Source: Verrucomicrobiota bacterium
GTDB taxonomy: Bacteria > Verrucomicrobiota > Verrucomicrobiia > Opitutales > UBA953
Reading direction: 5' to 3'
Length of the DNA: 64,000 nt
Assembly (NCBI GenBank): GCA_026397965.1
Contig: JAPLTU010000039.1
Location: 1 to 64,000 of the forward strand
The translations under genes were made by a program, and so were the position numbers. The notes below the pieces were generated by a model, which searched no databases, was not told the DNA's origin, and worked only from the letters and a program-made list of their open reading frames with translations. This document shows positions 4,858-57,631 of this stretch, in pieces; the stretch's first letter is position 1, and the number at the start of each line of letters is the position of its first letter.

Positions 4858-6000
4858 GTGTTCACCCTTCTTAAGACCGATACGACGACGGCCGCGCGCC
4901 TCGGCGTACTCAAGACCCCCCACGGGGAGGTCCGCACGCCGGTCTTCATGCCGGTCGGCACCCAGGCGACAGTCAAGGGTCTCTCTCCCCAGCAAGTCGC
5001 CGAGACGGGCGCCCAGATCCTGCTCAGCAATACTTACCACTTAAACCTCCGCCCGGGTCGCGAAATCGTCCGCGCCGCCGGCGGTCTCCACAAGTTCATG
5101 CACTGGGATAAGCCGATTCTGACCGACAGCGGCGGCTTCCAGGTCTTCTCGCTGGCAAAGCTCCGTACCATCACCGACGCGGGCATCCATTTCAGCTCTC
5201 ACCTCGACGGTAACAAGCTGTTCCTCGACGTAAAGGACTGCTTCGATATCCAAGACGCCCTCGGGTCCGACATCGCGATGGTGCTCGATGAATGTCCGCC
5301 CTACCCGTGCGAGTACGCCGCGTGCGAAGTCGCGGTGAACCGTTCGATCCGCTGGGCCAAAGAGATGCTCCAGCTGGCCAAGGACAGCGGCTTCCTGGCC
5401 TCCGGCCGTCATCTCTTCTGCATCAACCAGGGCTCGGTCTTCGATGACCTGCGCATCCGTTGCGCCGAAGAACTCGGTGAACTCGATTTCCCCGGCCACG
5501 CCATCGGTGGCGTCAGCGTCGGCGAGCCCGAGGAGCACATGCTCCATCAGGTCGGCTTGGTCGCACCGCTCCTCCCCAAGAACAAGCCGCGTTACGTCAT
5601 GGGCGTCGGCACGCCACCCCAGTTGCTCCGCATGGTCGCGCTCGGCGCCGACATGTTCGACTGCACCATGCCCACCCGCATCGGTCGCCACGGCGGGGCG
5701 TTCACGCCCGACGGTCCGATTAGCGTGAAACATCTGCGCTACCGCGATGACCACCGTCCGCTCGTCGAAGGCATGGACAACTATACCTGCCGCCACTTCT
5801 CGCGCGCTTATCTGCGCCATCTGCATCACGCTGGCGAGCAGCTCGGCGGCACCTTACTCGCCCTGCACAATATCCACTTCCTGCAGGACCTCATGGCCCA
5901 AGCCCACGTGCACATCGCCGCCGGCGACTTCGCCTCCTGGTCCAAGGCCTGGTGCGAGCGTTACGAAGCCGGCGCCAAGGACGAGATACCGGCGGACTAG
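4858..6000 (+). CDS. tgt: tRNA-guanine (queuine) transglycosylase
   Basis: The 380-residue enzyme exchanges guanine 34 for the queuosine precursor in GUN-anticodon tRNAs. It has LTDSGGFQVFSL (89-99; D90 substrate-binding), GHAIGGVSVGE (213-223) and ADMFDCTMPTRIGRHG (264-279), with D268 the expected nucleophile. Length is typical for the bacterial enzyme. The zinc site is unusual: the family's C-x-C-x2-C then H maps to M306, N308, C311 and H337, so two of three cysteines are missing while FSRAYLRHL around them is intact. The start is GTG 4858, the first in-frame start; MFTLLKTD is a normal N-terminus. It is flanked on both sides by repeat elements. Confidence 0.92.
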   Translation: MFTLLKTDTTTAARLGVLKTPHGEVRTPVFMPVGTQATVKGLSPQQVAETGAQILLSNTYHLNLRPGREIVRAAGGLHKFMHWDKPILTDSGGFQVFSLAKLRTITDAGIHFSSHLDGNKLFLDVKDCFDIQDALGSDIAMVLDECPPYPCEYAACEVAVNRSIRWAKEMLQLAKDSGFLASGRHLFCINQGSVFDDLRIRCAEELGELDFPGHAIGGVSVGEPEEHMLHQVGLVAPLLPKNKPRYVMGVGTPPQLLRMVALGADMFDCTMPTRIGRHGGAFTPDGPISVKHLRYRDDHRPLVEGMDNYTCRHFSRAYLRHLHHAGEQLGGTLLALHNIHFLQDLMAQAHVHIAAGDFASWSKAWCERYEAGAKDEIPAD

Positions 6001-50179: not shown

Positions 50180-51118
50180 ATGCCAACCCCTTGGGAGTCT
50201 CTCCGGCTACTCGCCGACCCCACCCGGGCTAGGATTTTATTTCTCTTAAACCGAGGCGAACTGGCCGTAAGCGAGCTTCAGGAAATTCTCGGCATGCGTC
50301 AGTCGCGCATCTCGACGCACCTTTCGCTCCTTCGTAAAGCCGGCCTCGCCGACGACCGCCGAGATGGGAAAAATTCTTATTACTCACTCGCGCGCAATCT
50401 TCCGGCGGGCGTGACCCAACTCATTGAGGCCGCTATCGCCGCTACGGCTGAAGACCTCGAAACCGCCGCCGACCAACGCTCCCTTCAACGGATCATCCAA
50501 AAGCGGCGGCAAAAAGCGGAACGACATTTCAACCTGGTAGCGGATCGGCTCGGCCGCAACTACTGCCCAGGGAGATCCTGGGAGGCTATCGGTCAGATGC
50601 TTCTCTTGCTCGCACCGCGCGTAAAGATCGCCGACCTCGGTGCCGGCGACGGCACCCTATCCCGACTGCTCGCACGTCGGGCCGAAAGCGTTCATTGTAT
50701 CGATAATTCCCCCCGCATGGTCCAGCTAGGCCGGGCCTTGGCGAAAAAGGAACATCTTAACAATCTTACCTACATCCTTGGCGATATCGAGAAGGTCCCC
50801 TTGGCCAATCGAAGCGTCGATCTCGCGCTACTCAGTCAAGCCCTGCATCACGCCGATAATCCCAGAAAAGCCTTAAGCGAAGCCTACCGGATTCTTAAAC
50901 CGGGCGGCAGGCTCCTCGTACTCGATCTCCGTGCCCACCGTTTTGAAAAAGCTCGTGAACTCTATGCGGACCGCTGGTTAGGATTCAAAGCAAACGACCT
51001 TCATGACTGGCTGGAAACCGCGGGGTTCCAGCACTCGGAGGTACGCGTGGTGGCCAAAGAGCCCAAAGAGCCAGGGTTTGAGACCTTACTCGCCTCGGGC
51101 CAAAAAGCTGGTCGGTGA
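50180..51118 (+). CDS. ArsR-type regulator fused to a SAM-dependent methyltransferase
   Basis: The 312-residue product joins a winged helix (10-72: LLADPTRARILFLLNRGELAVSELQEIL, SRISTHLSLLRKAGL) to a class I methyltransferase (from about 130: IADLGAGDGTLSRLL at 150-163, SVHCIDNSPRMVQLGRALA, LALLSQALHHADNPRKALSEAYRILKPGGRLLVLDL). Such fusions exist in several phyla; a role in sensing SAM or SAH, or methylating a small molecule, has been suggested but is unproven. The ArsR part has no obvious metal-binding cysteines, with only C129 and C174 in the protein. It stands alone after the greA terminator. Confidence 0.85.
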   Translation: MPTPWESLRLLADPTRARILFLLNRGELAVSELQEILGMRQSRISTHLSLLRKAGLADDRRDGKNSYYSLARNLPAGVTQLIEAAIAATAEDLETAADQRSLQRIIQKRRQKAERHFNLVADRLGRNYCPGRSWEAIGQMLLLLAPRVKIADLGAGDGTLSRLLARRAESVHCIDNSPRMVQLGRALAKKEHLNNLTYILGDIEKVPLANRSVDLALLSQALHHADNPRKALSEAYRILKPGGRLLVLDLRAHRFEKARELYADRWLGFKANDLHDWLETAGFQHSEVRVVAKEPKEPGFETLLASGQKAGR

Positions 51119-51188: not shown

Positions 51189-51217
51189 TTGGCAATTGGG
51201 CATCGATTGGCTAATTT
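51189..51217 (+). promoter_or_regulatory. Possible promoter of the TPR-ExbBD unit
   Basis: TTGGCA (51189-51194) and TAATTT (51212-51217) are spaced by exactly 17 bases, a fair sigma-70 match with an AT-rich tail. AGGAG at 51234-51238 is 18 bases before ATG 51257, longer than usual. The start site would lie near 51225. GGGG/CCCC hairpin bases precede it near 51166. Confidence 0.45.
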
Positions 51218-51256: not shown

Positions 51257-54200
51257 ATGGCAACCCACGAGTCTCGAATCTATAAGTTGGCAAAAGCTTC
51301 CCTTCTTGCCGTCCTCCTCGCTGCCTCCCCCATGCCTGGTGATTTGCGGGCCCAAGCGGCCGCCGCCGCGATCAATAAAGAGTCCAAGGAAGACCCCTTG
51401 TCTGTCTTATTCAAAAAAGCCGAACTGAACTTTGATCAAAAGAAATACAAGGACGCTTTGGCCGATTACGTCGAACTCGAAAAAAAAGCGACCAACGTTG
51501 AAGATAAACTCAAAGCGGTGGTCATCTTCCGAAAAGCCACCTGTTACTTTCTCATCAAGGATTGGTCTAAGACCGAAATCGAGCTTACTAATTTCCTCAC
51601 GAAATACCCCAAAGGAACCGACGACTTTTTTGATAGCGATAATCGGCGCGGGCTGGCGGAACTTACGTTGATTGAAGTCCTTTCCAATCAAGCCAAGTGG
51701 GATGCGGCCCTCCAACGTCTCGAAAAAATCCGTTCGAATACCTTGGCTCGGCCTGAAGATCGCGTCAACGCCTACGCGCTCTCCGCCAAGCTCGTCCTCG
51801 ACCGCGTTAAGTCGGCCCCGGAAGCTGATAAAAAAGCAGCTTACGGCCAAGCCGTTGCCTTACTCAAACAGGCCACCTCAGAAGGCGTCAATACTCCCGA
51901 ACGCAAAGAGGCCGGATTCAAACTGGTCGAAATTTACACTAAACTCGGCCTCGTCAAAGACGCCGATCAGCTCAAAGCCGAAATCGACGCTAAGAGCAGC
52001 GGCTCTCCGGCCGATATCGTCCGTTCCAACTTCCAGCGCCTCAGCATCGGCGATGTCCGCTTCGCTTCCGCCGAAGCCACCGTCGACGAAAACGCCCAAC
52101 CCGAAGCCTACCGACAGGCACTCAATAATTACCAAGGGACGCTCCGGCGGGCGACCCTCACTCGCGCGCTTCTCAAAGCGGTCGAAACCAAGCAAGGCGA
52201 CCTTGATAACATTATCAAAAGCAACCCAAAGCCTAACGACGAAACGAAGGCAAAAATCGAAATGGTACGCCAAGACTTGGACCAATTCAAAAAAATCGAG
52301 GCGGAATTTAATGCCAACAAAGATTACGACGCTTTCATTTCTTACCGCATCGGACTTTGCCTGCTCGAGTTGAACCGCCCCTGGGAAGCCTTCGTAGCCT
52401 TCCGCGATATTTTTGATAATAACCCTGAGTTTTCTCGGATCGCCGGTACCTATTATTACTACATCGTTGCCCTTCGGCGCACCGGACGAAACGTCGAAGC
52501 CCAAGCCAAGTGCAAGGAGTTCCTAGGTAAATTCCCGAAGGCCGATGAAAACTCGGCCATCGGCATGATCTTGGGCGAAATCTCCCAGGACTCCGAAGAT
52601 TTCAAAGAAGCCATCACCCACTACCGATGGGTGAAGGATAACGTAAAAAACCTCAGCGCGGACGCGGCGATGGAAATCGATTTCCGGATCGCTTGCTGCC
52701 ACTTCGCGATGGTGGACTGGAATGACGCCCGCGTTGCGTTTGAAAAGTTTCTCAAGCAGTACCCGCAATCACCCGTCACCCAGCAGGTGCTGTACATGAA
52801 TGCGCTGTGCTGGTTCTACCAAGGAAAGTTCAAGGAGACCAAGGCTGCCTTCGACACTTACGAGAAAGAGTACCCGCGCGGTCAATTCCTTCCCGACGTC
52901 CGGTACCGTCAAGCGATTGTCAAATTCGGCAGCACCCCCCCCGAGACCAGCGAAACCCTGCGTCTTTGCAACGAGTGGCTGAAGGAATTCGCCGTCATGA
53001 AAACGGATGAGGTTATCAACCAGCTGCCCGAAGTCCACACGCTGATCGGTGACACCTACATCCGTTTGGCCGACCAACTCACCGAGGCGATTCGCTTGGC
53101 CGACCTCGATATCCGTAACTCCGATTCGACTTCCGGAAAAACCTCCGCAGCGGCGAACAAAGCTAAACTTGAAAAGCAGAAGAACGATGTCACCGGCAAA
53201 GCGGTTGATGCCTATGTCGCCGCGGCCCGGACCGGCCGCACCAACGCCTCGGCGCTGGAATTCGTTCTGCGCGAACTAGGCAAGATGCTTCCCGGGCGCG
53301 GCGAACACCAACGGATGCGCGACCTGTACAAGGAAATCTACGACTGGAATCATAACGACCCCAAGGCGATGACCTACCTGTTTGACGTCATCAAGTCGAC
53401 CGAGCGCATGGGGGATAAGATCGAATTCAGCCAACGTACCGAACAGACCACCAAAAATTACAGCGCCAAGCTGGCCGCCGCCCGTAAGACCGTCAACGAC
53501 CTTGAGCGCAACTCGGGCACCCCCGAAGCGGTCGCGGCCGCCAAGGAAGCAGTCGCTAAACTCTCCGCCCAACTGGCCGCCGAACTCGACACTATCGAAA
53601 AAGAGCGTCAAATAAGCATCACCCAAGCCAAAACGGACGCACTCAAAATACTTTCCAATTCCGTCACGGAAAGCATCAACGACCGCCGCCAAGAAGGTGC
53701 CGAGAAACTCATCATCTTCCTGACCGAGAAAATCGCCAAGAAAGTGAAGCGGGTTAAGCCTGGCACAAAGCCCGACCCCGCGGCGTATTCCGTGGATAAT
53801 GCCGAAGTGGAACTGAAAAAATTACTTCGCCTCGAAGAAAATCGAGACTCCCTCATTGCCCAAGCCCGCGGCTTCTTCGCCCTCGGTCAACTTGCCCTTA
53901 ACACGCGTAACCCCGGAAAGGCCGCTGAGTATTATGAGAAAATCGCCACAAGTTACAAAGCCGAAGAACTGAGCCCCACCATCATCGCCGTCGTCGGCGA
54001 TCACCTGCTCACAAAAGGGGAACTGACCAAGGCCGCCAGCTACTTCGACTATATCCGCGAACACAGCCGCTCCACGGACTATGCTGATTACGGCTTCGCC
54101 GGTTCCGGTGAAATCTTGCTTCGCCAAAAAAAGTTCAAGCAGGCCGCCGAGCTCTGCCAGGAAGCCATCGACAACAATATCCTCATGTCAAAAGAGCGGG

Positions 54201-54577
54201 AAATCCTTTTCGTGCACGGCCGCGCTTTGGTTGAACTAGGACAATATGTCGCCGCCAAAAAGACCCTCGAAGACATCGCCAAGACTAAGGAATGGAGAGG
54301 CGAAACCACGGCAGGCTGCCTCTACTGGCTCGGCCAGATGGAAGAGCGTCAAGGCCATGACGCCGAAGCGGTAGCCTATTATCGTCGCTGCTGGATGGCC
54401 TGGAAGAAATATGAAGTTTGGTCCTCCAAGGCCTACCTTTCGGCGGCGAAGATTCTCGGAAATAAGATGGGGCAGAAACCCGAAGCCAAAGCGGTACTCG
54501 TTGAAATGCTCAGCAATGAGCGGATCAAGGCGACCCCGGAAGCCAACGAAGCCAAAGAACTCACCCTTAACTTCTAA
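51257..54577 (+). CDS. Large periplasmic TPR protein linked to an ExbB-ExbD unit
   Basis: The 1106-residue product has an N-terminal secretion signal (hydrophobic 15-25, likely cleavage near the LRAQA site) and tetratricopeptide-like repeats over most of its length: LFKKAELNFDQKKYKDALADYVELEKKA, LQRLEKIRSNTLARPEDRV, MEIDFRIACCHFAMVDWNDARVAFEKFLKQYP, GQLALNTRNPGKAAEYYEKI. A charged coiled-coil stretch lies at about 735-800. It begins a five-gene, same-strand unit with 342-residue protein, ExbB, ExbD and ExbD. Repeats of this kind bind other proteins, so it may be a scaffold or a load for the motor. I know of no characterised homologue. Confidence 0.75.
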   Translation: MATHESRIYKLAKASLLAVLLAASPMPGDLRAQAAAAAINKESKEDPLSVLFKKAELNFDQKKYKDALADYVELEKKATNVEDKLKAVVIFRKATCYFLIKDWSKTEIELTNFLTKYPKGTDDFFDSDNRRGLAELTLIEVLSNQAKWDAALQRLEKIRSNTLARPEDRVNAYALSAKLVLDRVKSAPEADKKAAYGQAVALLKQATSEGVNTPERKEAGFKLVEIYTKLGLVKDADQLKAEIDAKSSGSPADIVRSNFQRLSIGDVRFASAEATVDENAQPEAYRQALNNYQGTLRRATLTRALLKAVETKQGDLDNIIKSNPKPNDETKAKIEMVRQDLDQFKKIEAEFNANKDYDAFISYRIGLCLLELNRPWEAFVAFRDIFDNNPEFSRIAGTYYYYIVALRRTGRNVEAQAKCKEFLGKFPKADENSAIGMILGEISQDSEDFKEAITHYRWVKDNVKNLSADAAMEIDFRIACCHFAMVDWNDARVAFEKFLKQYPQSPVTQQVLYMNALCWFYQGKFKETKAAFDTYEKEYPRGQFLPDVRYRQAIVKFGSTPPETSETLRLCNEWLKEFAVMKTDEVINQLPEVHTLIGDTYIRLADQLTEAIRLADLDIRNSDSTSGKTSAAANKAKLEKQKNDVTGKAVDAYVAAARTGRTNASALEFVLRELGKMLPGRGEHQRMRDLYKEIYDWNHNDPKAMTYLFDVIKSTERMGDKIEFSQRTEQTTKNYSAKLAAARKTVNDLERNSGTPEAVAAAKEAVAKLSAQLAAELDTIEKERQISITQAKTDALKILSNSVTESINDRRQEGAEKLIIFLTEKIAKKVKRVKPGTKPDPAAYSVDNAEVELKKLLRLEENRDSLIAQARGFFALGQLALNTRNPGKAAEYYEKIATSYKAEELSPTIIAVVGDHLLTKGELTKAASYFDYIREHSRSTDYADYGFAGSGEILLRQKKFKQAAELCQEAIDNNILMSKEREILFVHGRALVELGQYVAAKKTLEDIAKTKEWRGETTAGCLYWLGQMEERQGHDAEAVAYYRRCWMAWKKYEVWSSKAYLSAAKILGNKMGQKPEAKAVLVEMLSNERIKATPEANEAKELTLNF

Positions 54578-54581
54578 TCCC

Positions 54582-55610
54582 ATGACCCCTTTCGTCCGCA
54601 TCGTTCTGGCGCTTGCCGCCCTTAGCCAACTACCTTCGGCCTCTGGGCAAGTTTTTATTTTTAAATCAAACGAACGCTGGGAAATCAATGATCCCTTCAA
54701 GATGGATCGGACTGCTTTGTCGCCCAAACAATTGGTAGACGCCAAAAAAGGCCTCATCAACCCCGTCAACGGGACCGTTGAACGCACTAACTTCATCAGC
54801 GGCGCTGAAATCAGGGCGAGTAAAAAACTCGTTGATGTCCTCGGCATCATCTGGCCCCTACCCGAGCGCCTCATCGAGGCTCAGAATAACATCAATCGCG
54901 GCGAGCCGGGCAAAGCCCTGGATAACATCGAAGCCGTCATCAAATTATTCGAACCTCTGAAGACGATTCCAGGCAGCTGGTGGGCGAAGGCCACCATGCT
55001 TAAGTTGGACGCCCTTGACCGGCTCGAGAACGAAGCCGCCATCGGCTCCTTTTTGGACAACCTGGAAAAGGACGAAAGTGCCAAACTCCCCGAACTCGCC
55101 ATCAAAATCCAGCTGGCCCGACTGATGCAGCGTGCCCGGAAAGGCGACCATGAAGCCGTGATCAAGGAAGCTACCGACCTGATTCCAAAGATGGATGACC
55201 CCGACCTGCTCGCGCGTTTACATATCGTCAAAGCCAACTCCTTGCTGGCCACCAAGAAATATGAATTGGCGATGAACGTCTATCTGCGGGTTCCGGTCTT
55301 TTACGGTGCTCAGCTTGAACACGTCCCCAAAGCCCTCCTTGGCGCCGCCCGTGCCTTCCGCGGTATGGACGCTCCGGCGACCCGGGAGCAGAAACTCGAA
55401 GAGGTTTCCAACCGCTACCTTCGCGACATCATCACGACCTACCCTGTCTCCAAAGAAGCAGAAGAAGCTAAGAAACTCCTGCCTAAAGAAGACCGCGTTA
55501 AAGCCGAAGCTGAGCAAAAGAAACTGGCAACGGCGGCCGCACTCCCCGAAGGAGCCGTGATGGCCAAGCCCAAGGTCAAAGCCGAAGACGATCAGTCCGG
55601 CAACAAGTGA
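54582..55610 (+). CDS. Secreted helical-repeat protein, second gene of the ExbBD unit
   Basis: The 342-residue product begins with a signal peptide (MTPFVRIVLALAALSQLPSASG). The mature part is helical with TPR-like spacing (LIEAQNNINRGEPGKALDNIEAVIKLFEPL, KYELAMNVYLRVPVFYG) and ends in a charged, Lys/Ala-rich tail (KKLLPKEDRVKAEAEQKK). I do not recognise the family. It begins 4 bases after the TPR gene and precedes exbB by 55 bases. ATG 54582 is chosen because longer frames overlap the TPR gene. Confidence 0.68.
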   Translation: MTPFVRIVLALAALSQLPSASGQVFIFKSNERWEINDPFKMDRTALSPKQLVDAKKGLINPVNGTVERTNFISGAEIRASKKLVDVLGIIWPLPERLIEAQNNINRGEPGKALDNIEAVIKLFEPLKTIPGSWWAKATMLKLDALDRLENEAAIGSFLDNLEKDESAKLPELAIKIQLARLMQRARKGDHEAVIKEATDLIPKMDDPDLLARLHIVKANSLLATKKYELAMNVYLRVPVFYGAQLEHVPKALLGAARAFRGMDAPATREQKLEEVSNRYLRDIITTYPVSKEAEEAKKLLPKEDRVKAEAEQKKLATAAALPEGAVMAKPKVKAEDDQSGNK

Positions 55611-55665
55611 GTCCTTGCCCCTTTCCAAAACCCAAACTAAATATCCACAACCCACTCAGGTCCCT

Positions 55666-56475
55666 ATGAAGCTGAAACTCCGCCTCCCCTTAATCACTTC
55701 GCTCTTCCTCGGACTTGCGACCGCCAACATGTTCGCGCAAGCCGCGGCGGCCGCTCCCGCCGCCCCCAACCACTTTGACAAGTCCTTGCTGGATCTCTTC
55801 ATCGAAGGCGGCTGGGTCATGTACCCTATCACGATTTGCTCGGTTCTCATGATCTGGTTCATCGTCGATGGCTTCATTAAAACCAGCACCGCCAAGCTTT
55901 ACCCTGCTGACCACGTCAAAGAGCTCCGCACCCTCTTCAAGAAAGGCGATTATGTCGGTGCTCACGCTTTTGCCAAAGCCGCTGATTCACCGGTCGCCCA
56001 GGTCATCCGCGCCGGAGTGTCCCTCTCCCCCGAAGGAAAAACCATGACCGAAGAGGCCATCATTTCGGAAATCACCCGCATCCAGGCCGAACTCAAAGGA
56101 CGTGCCTCCTACCTCTCCGTTATCGGCGTCTGTACGCCGATGATGGGCCTAACCGGTACGGTGACTGGCATGATGAAGGCCTTCCAAAAGCTTGCCACTA
56201 CGGGCGCGGGCGATCCCTCCTCCCTCTCCGGCGCCATCGGCGAAGTGCTCGTCGCAACGGCTTCCGGTCTGTTCATCGCTATTCCGGCCTTCATCGCTTA
56301 CTACCTACTAACGAACCGCATCAATAAAGGCGTCCACGATATCGGCGAAATTGCCAGCGGCCTCTTCCGCTCCTACCCCTACGATGAGATCGCTGGTCGG
56401 CGCGTCGGTGATGATGAAATCTACGCCTCCAAGCCAGATTGGAATGCCTCCCCCGCTCCTGCGGAGAAGGCCTAA
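55666..56475 (+). CDS. exbB: MotA/TolQ/ExbB-family proton channel
   Basis: The 269-residue protein begins with a signal-like segment (MKLKLRLPLITSLFLGLATANMFAQ) and an Ala/Pro linker, then has three membrane helices: about 47-70 (GGWVMYPITICSVLMIWFIVDGF), 160-182 (IGVCTPMMGLTGTVTGMM) and 197-222 (AIGEVLVATASGLFIAIPAFIAYYLL). The second and third have the GLxGTVxGM and ExLVATAxGLxxAIPA signatures of TolQ/ExbB. It forms the stator pore with ExbD. Whether it drives TonB, Tol or a new load is unclear; no TonB, TolA, TolB or Pal is in the window. Confidence 0.88.
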   Translation: MKLKLRLPLITSLFLGLATANMFAQAAAAAPAAPNHFDKSLLDLFIEGGWVMYPITICSVLMIWFIVDGFIKTSTAKLYPADHVKELRTLFKKGDYVGAHAFAKAADSPVAQVIRAGVSLSPEGKTMTEEAIISEITRIQAELKGRASYLSVIGVCTPMMGLTGTVTGMMKAFQKLATTGAGDPSSLSGAIGEVLVATASGLFIAIPAFIAYYLLTNRINKGVHDIGEIASGLFRSYPYDEIAGRRVGDDEIYASKPDWNASPAPAEKA

Positions 56476-56500
56476 TCACCTCCAACCCGACTAAACGACC

Positions 56501-56941
56501 ATGGCAGGCGGAGGAGGAGGCGGGGAAGGCGAACCAGAATTCCAAGTAGCACCGATGATCGATGTGCTGCTGGTCTTGCTCATCTTCTTTATGTCCATCA
56601 CTTCCTCTCAGGTGCTCAAGGTCGACAAGAACATCAAGCTGCCGGTCGCCTCTCACGGCATCAAACGGGATGACAAAGCAACCGCTGGACTGATCAACAT
56701 TTCGTGGGACGCGTCCACCGGACAGGCCAGGTATAAGCTCGATGACCGCGAACTGGACGCTAACGATAAAGATGGCATCGCCAAGGAACTGGCCGCCCGC
56801 AAAGGCACCAACGAAAAATATCGTCTCCTCATTCGCGCCGACCGCGAATGCCACGCTAAATATATTTCTAAAGCCCTCGAATGGGGCGCCGAAGCCGGAA
56901 TCGATAATATCGCCTTCTCCGGTCTGAACCACGAAGAATAA
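56501..56941 (+). CDS. exbD: ExbD/TolR-family protein, first copy
   Basis: The 146-residue protein has a Gly-rich N-terminus, one membrane helix beginning FQVAPMIDVLLVLLIFFM with the essential aspartate D21, and a periplasmic domain. It is the plug and force-bearing partner of ExbB. It differs from the second copy over most of the periplasmic part, so they are not a recent duplication. It starts 25 bases after exbB and ends 2 bases before the second exbD. Confidence 0.85.
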   Translation: MAGGGGGGEGEPEFQVAPMIDVLLVLLIFFMSITSSQVLKVDKNIKLPVASHGIKRDDKATAGLINISWDASTGQARYKLDDRELDANDKDGIAKELAARKGTNEKYRLLIRADRECHAKYISKALEWGAEAGIDNIAFSGLNHEE

Positions 56942-56943
56942 TC

Positions 56944-57387
56944 ATGCGTCAACTCGCCCCCCAACCCGACGCTAGCACCGGCTTCCAGATTGCACCGATG
57001 ATCGATGTCGTCTTCGTCATCATGCTCTTTTTCATGGTGATGGCAGGCGCGATCAAAGTAGAGCATGAGCTGAAAACCACCCTCCCCGGCAACGCCGAGA
57101 CCGCCAAGGAAACCGAAATGCCCGATGAGATTAATATCGGCATCTCGGAAAGTGGCGAGGTCACCCTTAACGATGATCCAGTCGGTAACGCCCAAGACAA
57201 AGAATTGAAAAGCCTTTACACCCAGATGGTCGTGATGAAAAAGGCTGCCGAGCAGGCAAAAACGAAACTTCTCATCACCGTCCAAGCCGAAGAAACCGCC
57301 CGCTATGATCGGGTGATAAACGTCCTCGACGTCCTCGCCCTCGCCGAGGTTTCCAACGTGACGTTTGCGGTTGCTGACACGGAATAA
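56944..57387 (+). CDS. exbD: ExbD/TolR-family protein, second copy
   Basis: The 147-residue protein has the same layout: N-terminal QPDASTGFQIAPMIDVVFVIMLFFMVM with aspartate D21 in the helix, then a periplasmic domain of different sequence (EINIGISESGEVTLNDDPVGN ... YDRVINVLDVLALAEVSNVTFAVAD). Two different ExbD proteins with one ExbB suggest a heteromeric complex. It ends the unit, with a terminator at 57413. Confidence 0.85.
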   Translation: MRQLAPQPDASTGFQIAPMIDVVFVIMLFFMVMAGAIKVEHELKTTLPGNAETAKETEMPDEINIGISESGEVTLNDDPVGNAQDKELKSLYTQMVVMKKAAEQAKTKLLITVQAEETARYDRVINVLDVLALAEVSNVTFAVADTE

Positions 57388-57412
57388 CCGCTTTTCTTAG
57401 CTCTGGCCCCTA

Positions 57413-57440
57413 AACCGCCCGCCGGCGGTTTTTTTGTTTT
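57413..57440 (+). terminator. Rho-independent terminator after the ExbBD unit
   Basis: AACCGCC (57413-57419) pairs with GGCGGTT (57424-57430), followed by a long T-run (TTTTTGTTTT). It lies 25 bases past the second exbD stop. Confidence 0.9.
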
Positions 57441-57482: not shown

Positions 57483-57620
57483 ATGAAGTTCTCTCTCCTG
57501 CTAATCGCCGCCACGCTTGGCCTCTCCGGCTGCATCATCGTCTTTGAGCAGCCCAAAGACCCCAAGCCAGCCGTCCCATCTAAGGCAGAAACCGCCAAAG
57601 CCGACGCTAGCGCAAAGTAA
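57483..57620 (+). CDS. Small predicted lipoprotein, 45 residues
   Basis: MKFSLLLIAATLGLSGC is a full lipoprotein signal with lipobox LSGC and modified C17. The mature 29 residues are Lys/Ala/Pro-rich (EQPKDPKPAVPSKAETAK). It is shorter than ordinary gene-finder cut-offs. It stands alone after a terminator and converges with thrC. Its role is unknown. Confidence 0.6.
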   Translation: MKFSLLLIAATLGLSGCIIVFEQPKDPKPAVPSKAETAKADASAK

Positions 57621-57631
57621 GCACCTGAAGC

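Follow-up and report, generated by a model that had tools for sequence, protein, structure and literature searches.

A conserved TPR-G2-ExbB-ExbD-ExbD operon of Verrucomicrobiota as a probable proton motor for separately encoded TonB-topology transducers

The window analysed here is a 64,000-nucleotide stretch of a Verrucomicrobiota genome (assembly GCA_026397965.1; contig 15, bases 1-64000), which spans 2.18 Mb in 89 contigs and is 96.5% complete. Between positions 51257 and 57387 it carries an operon of five genes for a long tetratricopeptide repeat (TPR) protein, a second periplasmic protein termed G2, an ExbB/TolQ-type subunit and two ExbD proteins. The operon is best read as a proton motor that acts through transducers of TonB topology encoded elsewhere in the genome, with glycan uptake as a possible task. 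As a whole this reading is reasonably probable; its motor-and-transducer part is likely, and the part that concerns uptake falls somewhat short of an even chance. The motor would be self-contained, with an ExbB pentamer around one ExbD1-ExbD2 pair as in known 5:2 motors, and with the long TPR protein and G2 presumably bound on its periplasmic side as dedicated subunits. It would have no arm of its own. Instead, force would be relayed by transducers. Each would consist of a single transmembrane helix whose S-x-x-x-H motif binds the motor, then a conserved segment and a Gly-rich linker, and finally a periplasmic head of exchangeable type. In the window's family such transducers lie elsewhere, several per genome, and are presumed to use this motor. 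The motor would probably act across the envelope on large molecules, with glycan uptake aided by a type IV pilus as the likeliest case.

All five open reading frames (ORFs) were verified on the + strand. The TPR protein (51257..54577; 1106 amino acids) begins with a hydrophobic stretch and is thus predicted to be exported. G2 (54582..55610; 342 amino acids from its ATG) has a signal peptide and is predicted to be periplasmic. The ExbB/TolQ-type proton channel subunit (55666..56475; 269 amino acids from ATG, with an alternative TTG start at 55615) has a signal-like N-terminus and a GL-GTV-GM motif. ExbD1 (56501..56941; 146 amino acids) carries its transmembrane, proton-binding Asp within APMIDV, and ExbD2 (56944..57387; 147 amino acids), an apparently ancient and distinct paralogue, has the same Asp motif. 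Pfam searches return TPR repeats for the first protein, MotA_ExbB for ExbB (E 1.9e-26; 92.7 bits against a cut-off of 22.9) and ExbD for the last two (E 6.9e-16 and 3e-20; 58.9 and 73.0 bits against 25.4 each), which identifies an ExbB-ExbD/TolQ-TolR motor. The GL-GTV-GM motif and the Asp motif of both ExbDs are present in 80/80 loci of the set described below; the ExbD transmembrane Asp and the ExbB GT motif are residues that we take to have their usual roles in a proton motor.

An earlier note on this DNA described standard motor parts joined to unusual periplasmic components, in a design other than that of Ton or Tol, and this description holds. No TonB_C protein is encoded in or next to the operon, the genome's TonB_C match being on contig 39, and no TolA, TolB or Pal is found in the operon, an OmpA/Pal-like match being on contig 1. 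Compared with Ton and Tol-Pal, the system shares the 5:2-type motor subunits and a TonB-like transducer topology, but differs in its extra TPR subunits, in its other heads and in the absence of TonB_C/TolA, TolB and Pal from the operon.

Conservation of the five-gene unit is far beyond chance, because all five parts are found in 20/20 same-genus loci examined and a single order, TPR-G2-ExbB-ExbD-ExbD, recurs in 77/80 loci of a separate set. This set comprises the best 80 of 302 relatives found among 327 candidates in an ExbB-based scan of named bacterial genomes and, being picked via ExbB, is blind to stand-alone TPR genes. Two of the three exceptions are truncated by contig ends (L151, L222) and in the third the G2 slot was not recognised (L194); all three are put down to contig edges or to artefacts of ORF calling. 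Record titles among the 80 include Opitutae, Spartobacteria, Terrimicrobiaceae, Prosthecobacter and Puniceicoccales. The TPR protein is present in 37/37 same-genus genomes, fragmented in some. A TPR-based search that reached 15 distant loci found the unit intact in six (L039, L042, L043, L047, L048, L051) and broken or partly recognised in nine (L038, L040, L041, L044, L045, L046, L049, L050, L052). The earlier note had proposed a single operon and named TPR and ExbBD genes found apart in relatives as evidence against it. The unit stands and, within the window's motor type, the two stay together in the same 77 loci; a TPR gene apart from ExbBD does occur in 2/10 loci of the Akkermansia Mul1 type and in one locus of another family (L038). 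A G2-ExbB gene fusion was considered for the long ExbB ORFs of L041 (545 amino acids) and L222 (607 amino acids) and was rejected, since the N-terminal portions of these ORFs resemble read-through in the wrong frame. Two loci titled Akkermansia muciniphila (L169, L204) and one titled Polynucleobacter (L171) resemble the Opitutae or Prosthecobacter loci around them; their titles were taken as mislabelled metagenome-assembled genomes (MAGs) and were not used as evidence.

The two ExbD proteins are far more alike across loci than within one. ExbD1 and ExbD2 share 27% identity inside a locus, against 70% (ExbD1) and 65% (ExbD2) between loci for proteins of their own kind. In a 46-row tree of ExbD proteins from four locus types (window-type, Akkermansia-like, other-order and other-class), the division into ExbD1 and ExbD2 corresponds to one change on one branch, with which 94% of bootstrap trees agree. 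Since the two kinds lie on opposite sides of this branch across locus types, the pair is, on the evidence of the tree, older than the split of these types. An ancient pair would fit a fixed heterodimer. In the ExbB tree, the genome's other three ExbB-like proteins, two of which have an adjoining ExbD, fall outside the group of the operon ExbB, on long branches. A second TPR protein of 963 amino acids is encoded on contig 56 of the same genome (L007:2180-5071, +) and overlaps by 4 bases a gene for a divergent ExbB-like protein of 213 amino acids (5068-5709, +). No ExbD was recognised near this pair, which is flanked by genes for aspartokinase and undecaprenyl diphosphate synthase.

The predicted structure of the TPR protein is all helical (mean pLDDT 85.8), with about 48 TPR-type helices. 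The earlier note had also called the second secreted protein helical, which omits a small N-terminal beta region (residues 23-90) ahead of the TPR helices in the G2 model (mean pLDDT 81). Searches with Foldseek and VIA-align for G2, and with Foldseek for the TPR model, returned generic TPR proteins only, and no family is claimed on this basis. G2 scores 25.8 bits against the NCBIfam model Mul1B (NF052542), below its cut-off of 75, and matches Mul1B proteins of the family f23 at E 4.5e-17 and the second protein of other-order loci at E 5.2e-12 in profile-profile alignment.

What follows ExbD2 in other lineages is a gene for a protein with a single transmembrane helix that contains S-x-x-x-H, a conserved stretch past this helix and a C-terminal head. 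The motif His is present in 10/11 aligned N-terminal parts (alignment A2) and is invariant in 12/12 transducers from the window's family, which include both head types and two proteins of the window's own genome (alignment A7). Eleven of these twelve end in arginine. A profile of the transducer matches the gene directly after ExbD2 in 8/80 loci, and another 8 of the 28 loci that lie outside the Opitutae block (L198-L226, L218 excepted) are cut off by a contig end within 500 bases of ExbD2. In the window's own genome, the profile matches C15:76660-77019 (E 3e-15) and C11:8913-9257 (E 9e-12), with no other match at E<=1; the TonB of contig 39 and a TolA-like gene on contig 3 are unmatched. The first match lies in a gene at about C15:75808-77121, on the opposite strand, beyond the window and some 18 kb past the operon, where it adjoins a tandem partner of 361 amino acids. 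The earlier note's statement that TonB, TolA and Pal are missing therefore holds for the operon itself, but its wider suggestion of a motor without any TonB-like partner is not supported by these findings in relatives and in the genome itself.

Motor and transducer also occur together across the phylum. Among 387 genomes, with the motor type called at 200 bits or more and the transducer at E<=1e-6, the motor was found in 33, the transducer in 109 and both in 31, so that the transducer is present in 31/33 motor genomes against 78/354 others (Fisher p 9e-17, uncorrected for phylogeny). In 13/21 genomes for which both positions are listed, from six families, the transducer shares the strand of the motor and lies no more than 2.4 kb downstream of it.

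The transducers appear to be built for exchange of their periplasmic ends. The first half of the 12 window-family proteins is conserved across two head types. Heads of the first type have D-x-S-x-S and an Asp invariant in 6/6 and are vWA-like by motif only; both transducers found by profile in the window's genome bear such a head. Alignment of these heads with vWA heads of other orders by hhalign gave E 0.028, which is not significant. Heads of the second type are PA14-like, with weak Pfam matches. In the window's genus, where the transducers that bear them are unlinked, they are homologous to operon-linked heads of Spartobacteria (hhalign E 2.1e-43). A third, toroid-like head with SQHop cyclase matches is found in Prosthecobacter L205 and in G358 (L141). 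The cytosolic side varies as well. Two transducers, L200:3174-5549 (+) and L222:2887-5211 (+), carry an N-terminal Ser/Thr protein kinase (PF00069, E 6.8e-43 and 3.6e-41) ahead of the TonB-topology part and a PA14-like head, and both directly follow ExbD2. The same kinase stands at the start of a gene in L198 and L220, where the contigs then end. Prosthecobacter-type transducers (L205:9765-11849, +; also L204, L208, L211, L212 and L225) have long cytosolic N-terminal repeats resembling GYPPQMPGYPPGYP, and many contigs terminate at or near such a repeat-bearing gene. A kinase-fused transducer would connect envelope force with signalling. It is conceivable, if on balance doubtful, that a single motor is the common engine of a whole family of plug-in arms. 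These arms would share the helix that docks on the motor and a neck, would combine exchangeable heads (vWA-like, PA14-like or alpha/alpha toroid) with exchangeable cytosolic parts (Pro-rich repeats or a Ser/Thr kinase), and in the window's family would act with the type IV pilus to carry large glycans across the outer membrane.

A sister of the window's operon is mucin utilisation locus 1 (MUL1) of Akkermansia. To our knowledge, Akkermansia mucin uptake is the only case of polymer import into the periplasm in Verrucomicrobiota for which genetics exist. Reviews and citing papers describe MUL1 as needed for intracellular mucin accumulation. MUL1 and a pilus locus, MUL2, are both linked to mucin uptake in A. 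muciniphila (PMC13174399). The Mul1B cut-off is passed in 33/387 genomes of the phylum, all from f23, a family that we infer to be Akkermansiaceae, with its genus g50 as Akkermansia, in part from the name of the NCBIfam model. Two PDB sequence searches with neighbours of the Mul1 locus returned RNase E alone in one case and no match in the other, so that they added nothing to this assignment. Eight of ten Mul1-type loci examined read ExbB-ExbD-ExbD-TPR-Mul1B, and two hold only TPR-Mul1B without adjoining ExbB or ExbD genes; the full units comprise three g50 loci (L129, L130, L135) and 5/7 from other f23 genera. MUL1 has the same kinds of part as the window's unit, including ExbDs of the same ancient pair, a long TPR protein and a homologue of G2, but in permuted order and with an ExbB of a separate clade. 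Four genomes (G358, G320, G267, G306) combine a motor of the window type with a Mul1B that passes the cut-off; in G358 the two are neighbours. Strict orthology with MUL1 was considered and is ruled out by these four genomes; because each holds both types, the window motor and the Mul1-type motor are, as judged from sequence comparison, homologous paralogous branches, with G2 homologous to Mul1B. A 2026 paper reports that MUL1 synteny is absent in aquatic Akkermansiaceae and takes this as a sign of mucin-specific adaptation (PMC13174399). The full units in 5/7 loci from other f23 genera conflict with that report if f23 and g50 are indeed Akkermansiaceae and Akkermansia.

The setting of the unlinked transducers may point to a partner for the motor. 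In 6/6 window-family loci examined around the first transducer (L238, L240-L244; two genera), PilB-PilT-PilB-PilC genes precede the transducer pair, after which come genes for ApbE and, before it, a membrane protein. Locus L244 is truncated at its end and contains an insertion. The Pil names are based on Pfam T2SSE/T2SSF matches in L238 and on gene lengths. Outside the pilus locus, the neighbours of transducer genes (sulfatase, gamma-glutamyltranspeptidase, aminotransferase and others) show no common theme. Given that A. muciniphila depends on both MUL1 and MUL2 in connection with mucin uptake, a joint pilus-motor uptake machine may be the best guess at function.

A stricter form of this idea holds that the window's operon is itself an uptake machine of MUL1 type, doing the Akkermansia job on environmental glycans with pili drawing the polymer in. 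The match of G2 to the Mul1B model and profile, the eight full Mul1-type loci with their rearranged set of the five parts and the pilus genes beside the transducers all speak for it, as does the report that aquatic Akkermansiaceae accumulate fluorescent fucoidan and that uptake in A. muciniphila depends on mul genes (PMC13174399). Against it, the unit is a paralogue rather than an orthologue, given the four genomes with both types and the separate ExbB clades; G2 stays under the NCBIfam cut-off, and genomes of g50 show no transducer match in the profile search list. This explanation is a serious contender that nevertheless seems more doubtful than not. A different possibility, put forward in the earlier note, is that the 1106-residue TPR protein is itself the load and takes force directly from ExbB-ExbD, the transducers belonging to other motors. 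TPR and G2 are the sole partners kept in every family, and no transducer is adjacent to the motor in the window's family. However, a transducer gene directly follows ExbD2 of the same motor type in the 13 genomes noted above, linked and unlinked heads are homologous, and the predicted TPR model offers solely TPR-type helices past its N-terminal stretch. Because transducer genes adjoin ExbD2 in relatives and homologous transducers occur in the window's own genome, the TPR protein is more likely a dedicated periplasmic motor subunit than the sole load; direct load-bearing is possible, but as a full explanation it is unlikely.

Two known machines offer further comparisons. An ordinary Ton energiser would work with the lone TonB of contig 39. 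In favour of this option, that TonB_C protein adjoins no ExbB, and TonB-dependent receptor plugs were found in 9/12 genus genomes searched. The option is nonetheless very improbable: the genome has the three other ExbB-like proteins, two with their own ExbD, and no Plug match, the operon ExbB stands apart from other ExbBs in the tree, though those have long branches, and in relatives the motor goes with transducers of another family. The lone tonB itself (L127:5948-6571, +) lies near recA and a DD-carboxypeptidase gene. An AglRQS-like moving motor, serving surface motility or outer-membrane transport, is slightly less improbable. The gliding motor of Myxococcus likewise combines one TolQ-like with two TolR-like subunits (PMC3169522), and several of its Glt partners have TPRs (PMC3169522, PMC9389320). 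It is motor make-up alone that speaks for this comparison, no search for Glt parts having been made.

The preferred reading of a motor with separate transducers has its own difficulties. Related genomes are not independent, so that the Fisher p value given above overstates the evidence, and motor and transducer are adjacent in 0/6 window-family genomes with both positions listed. Two of the 33 motor genomes (G132, G373) have no recognised transducer, and 78 genomes carry a transducer without a motor of the window type; transducers therefore also serve other ExbB types. The vWA-like heads of the window's own genome reach Pfam at best at E 0.17 and find no match in a PDB sequence search. The link to glycan uptake comes only from the paralogous Mul1 locus and the neighbouring pilus genes.

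Signals around the operon are of mixed quality. A terminator-like stem-loop followed by a T run at about 57412..57431 (+) is plausible and agrees with the terminator proposed in the earlier note. Its candidate promoter at 51189..51217 (+) is weak: TTGGCA and TAATTT, spaced by 17 nt, give 8/12 matches, and the site falls below the thresholds of a promoter scan and is unlisted there. Past the terminator lies a convergent threonine synthase gene, with no transducer gene directly downstream. A small lipoprotein-like ORF (57484-57621, +) is found directly past the terminator. Immediately upstream of the operon, 50180-51118 (+) encodes a protein that joins an ArsR-type DNA-binding domain to a methyltransferase; a 312-amino-acid ORF occupies this position in many same-genus loci. 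The nearest named loci (L147-L149) are Opitutae MAGs with 97% ExbB identity, of lake origin going by their isolate names.

The earlier note had put the system forward as a candidate for an undescribed one. This is correct only in part, as a PVC gene cluster of TPR, TolQ-like, two heterologous TolR-like and vWA transducer genes has been published, the transducer having TonB topology, an SHLS-type helix and a conserved His (PMC12204202; Mol Biol Evol 2025), and the Akkermansia locus MUL1 holds a paralogous motor. In that cluster the transducer gene is linked, whereas the window's lies elsewhere in the genome. Section 8 of PMC12204202 makes no mention of G2, PA14-like or toroid heads, kinase fusions, unlinked pilus-side transducers or a tie to MUL1. 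The literature searched likewise holds no description of G2 outside Akkermansia, its tie to Mul1B, exchangeable heads, kinase-fused transducers or unlinked transducers beside pilus genes. The cluster of motor and vWA transducer is thus already known; measured against the literature searched, what appears new is G2 with its Mul1B tie, the exchange of heads, the fusion of transducers to kinases and the unlinked pilus-side transducers.

If the reading of one common engine for plug-in arms is true, MUL1 would represent a single specialisation within an older machine found across the phylum rather than an invention of the gut. Its place inside an older motor family would provide testable partners, namely G2, the ExbD pair, the transducers and the pili, in free-living relatives.

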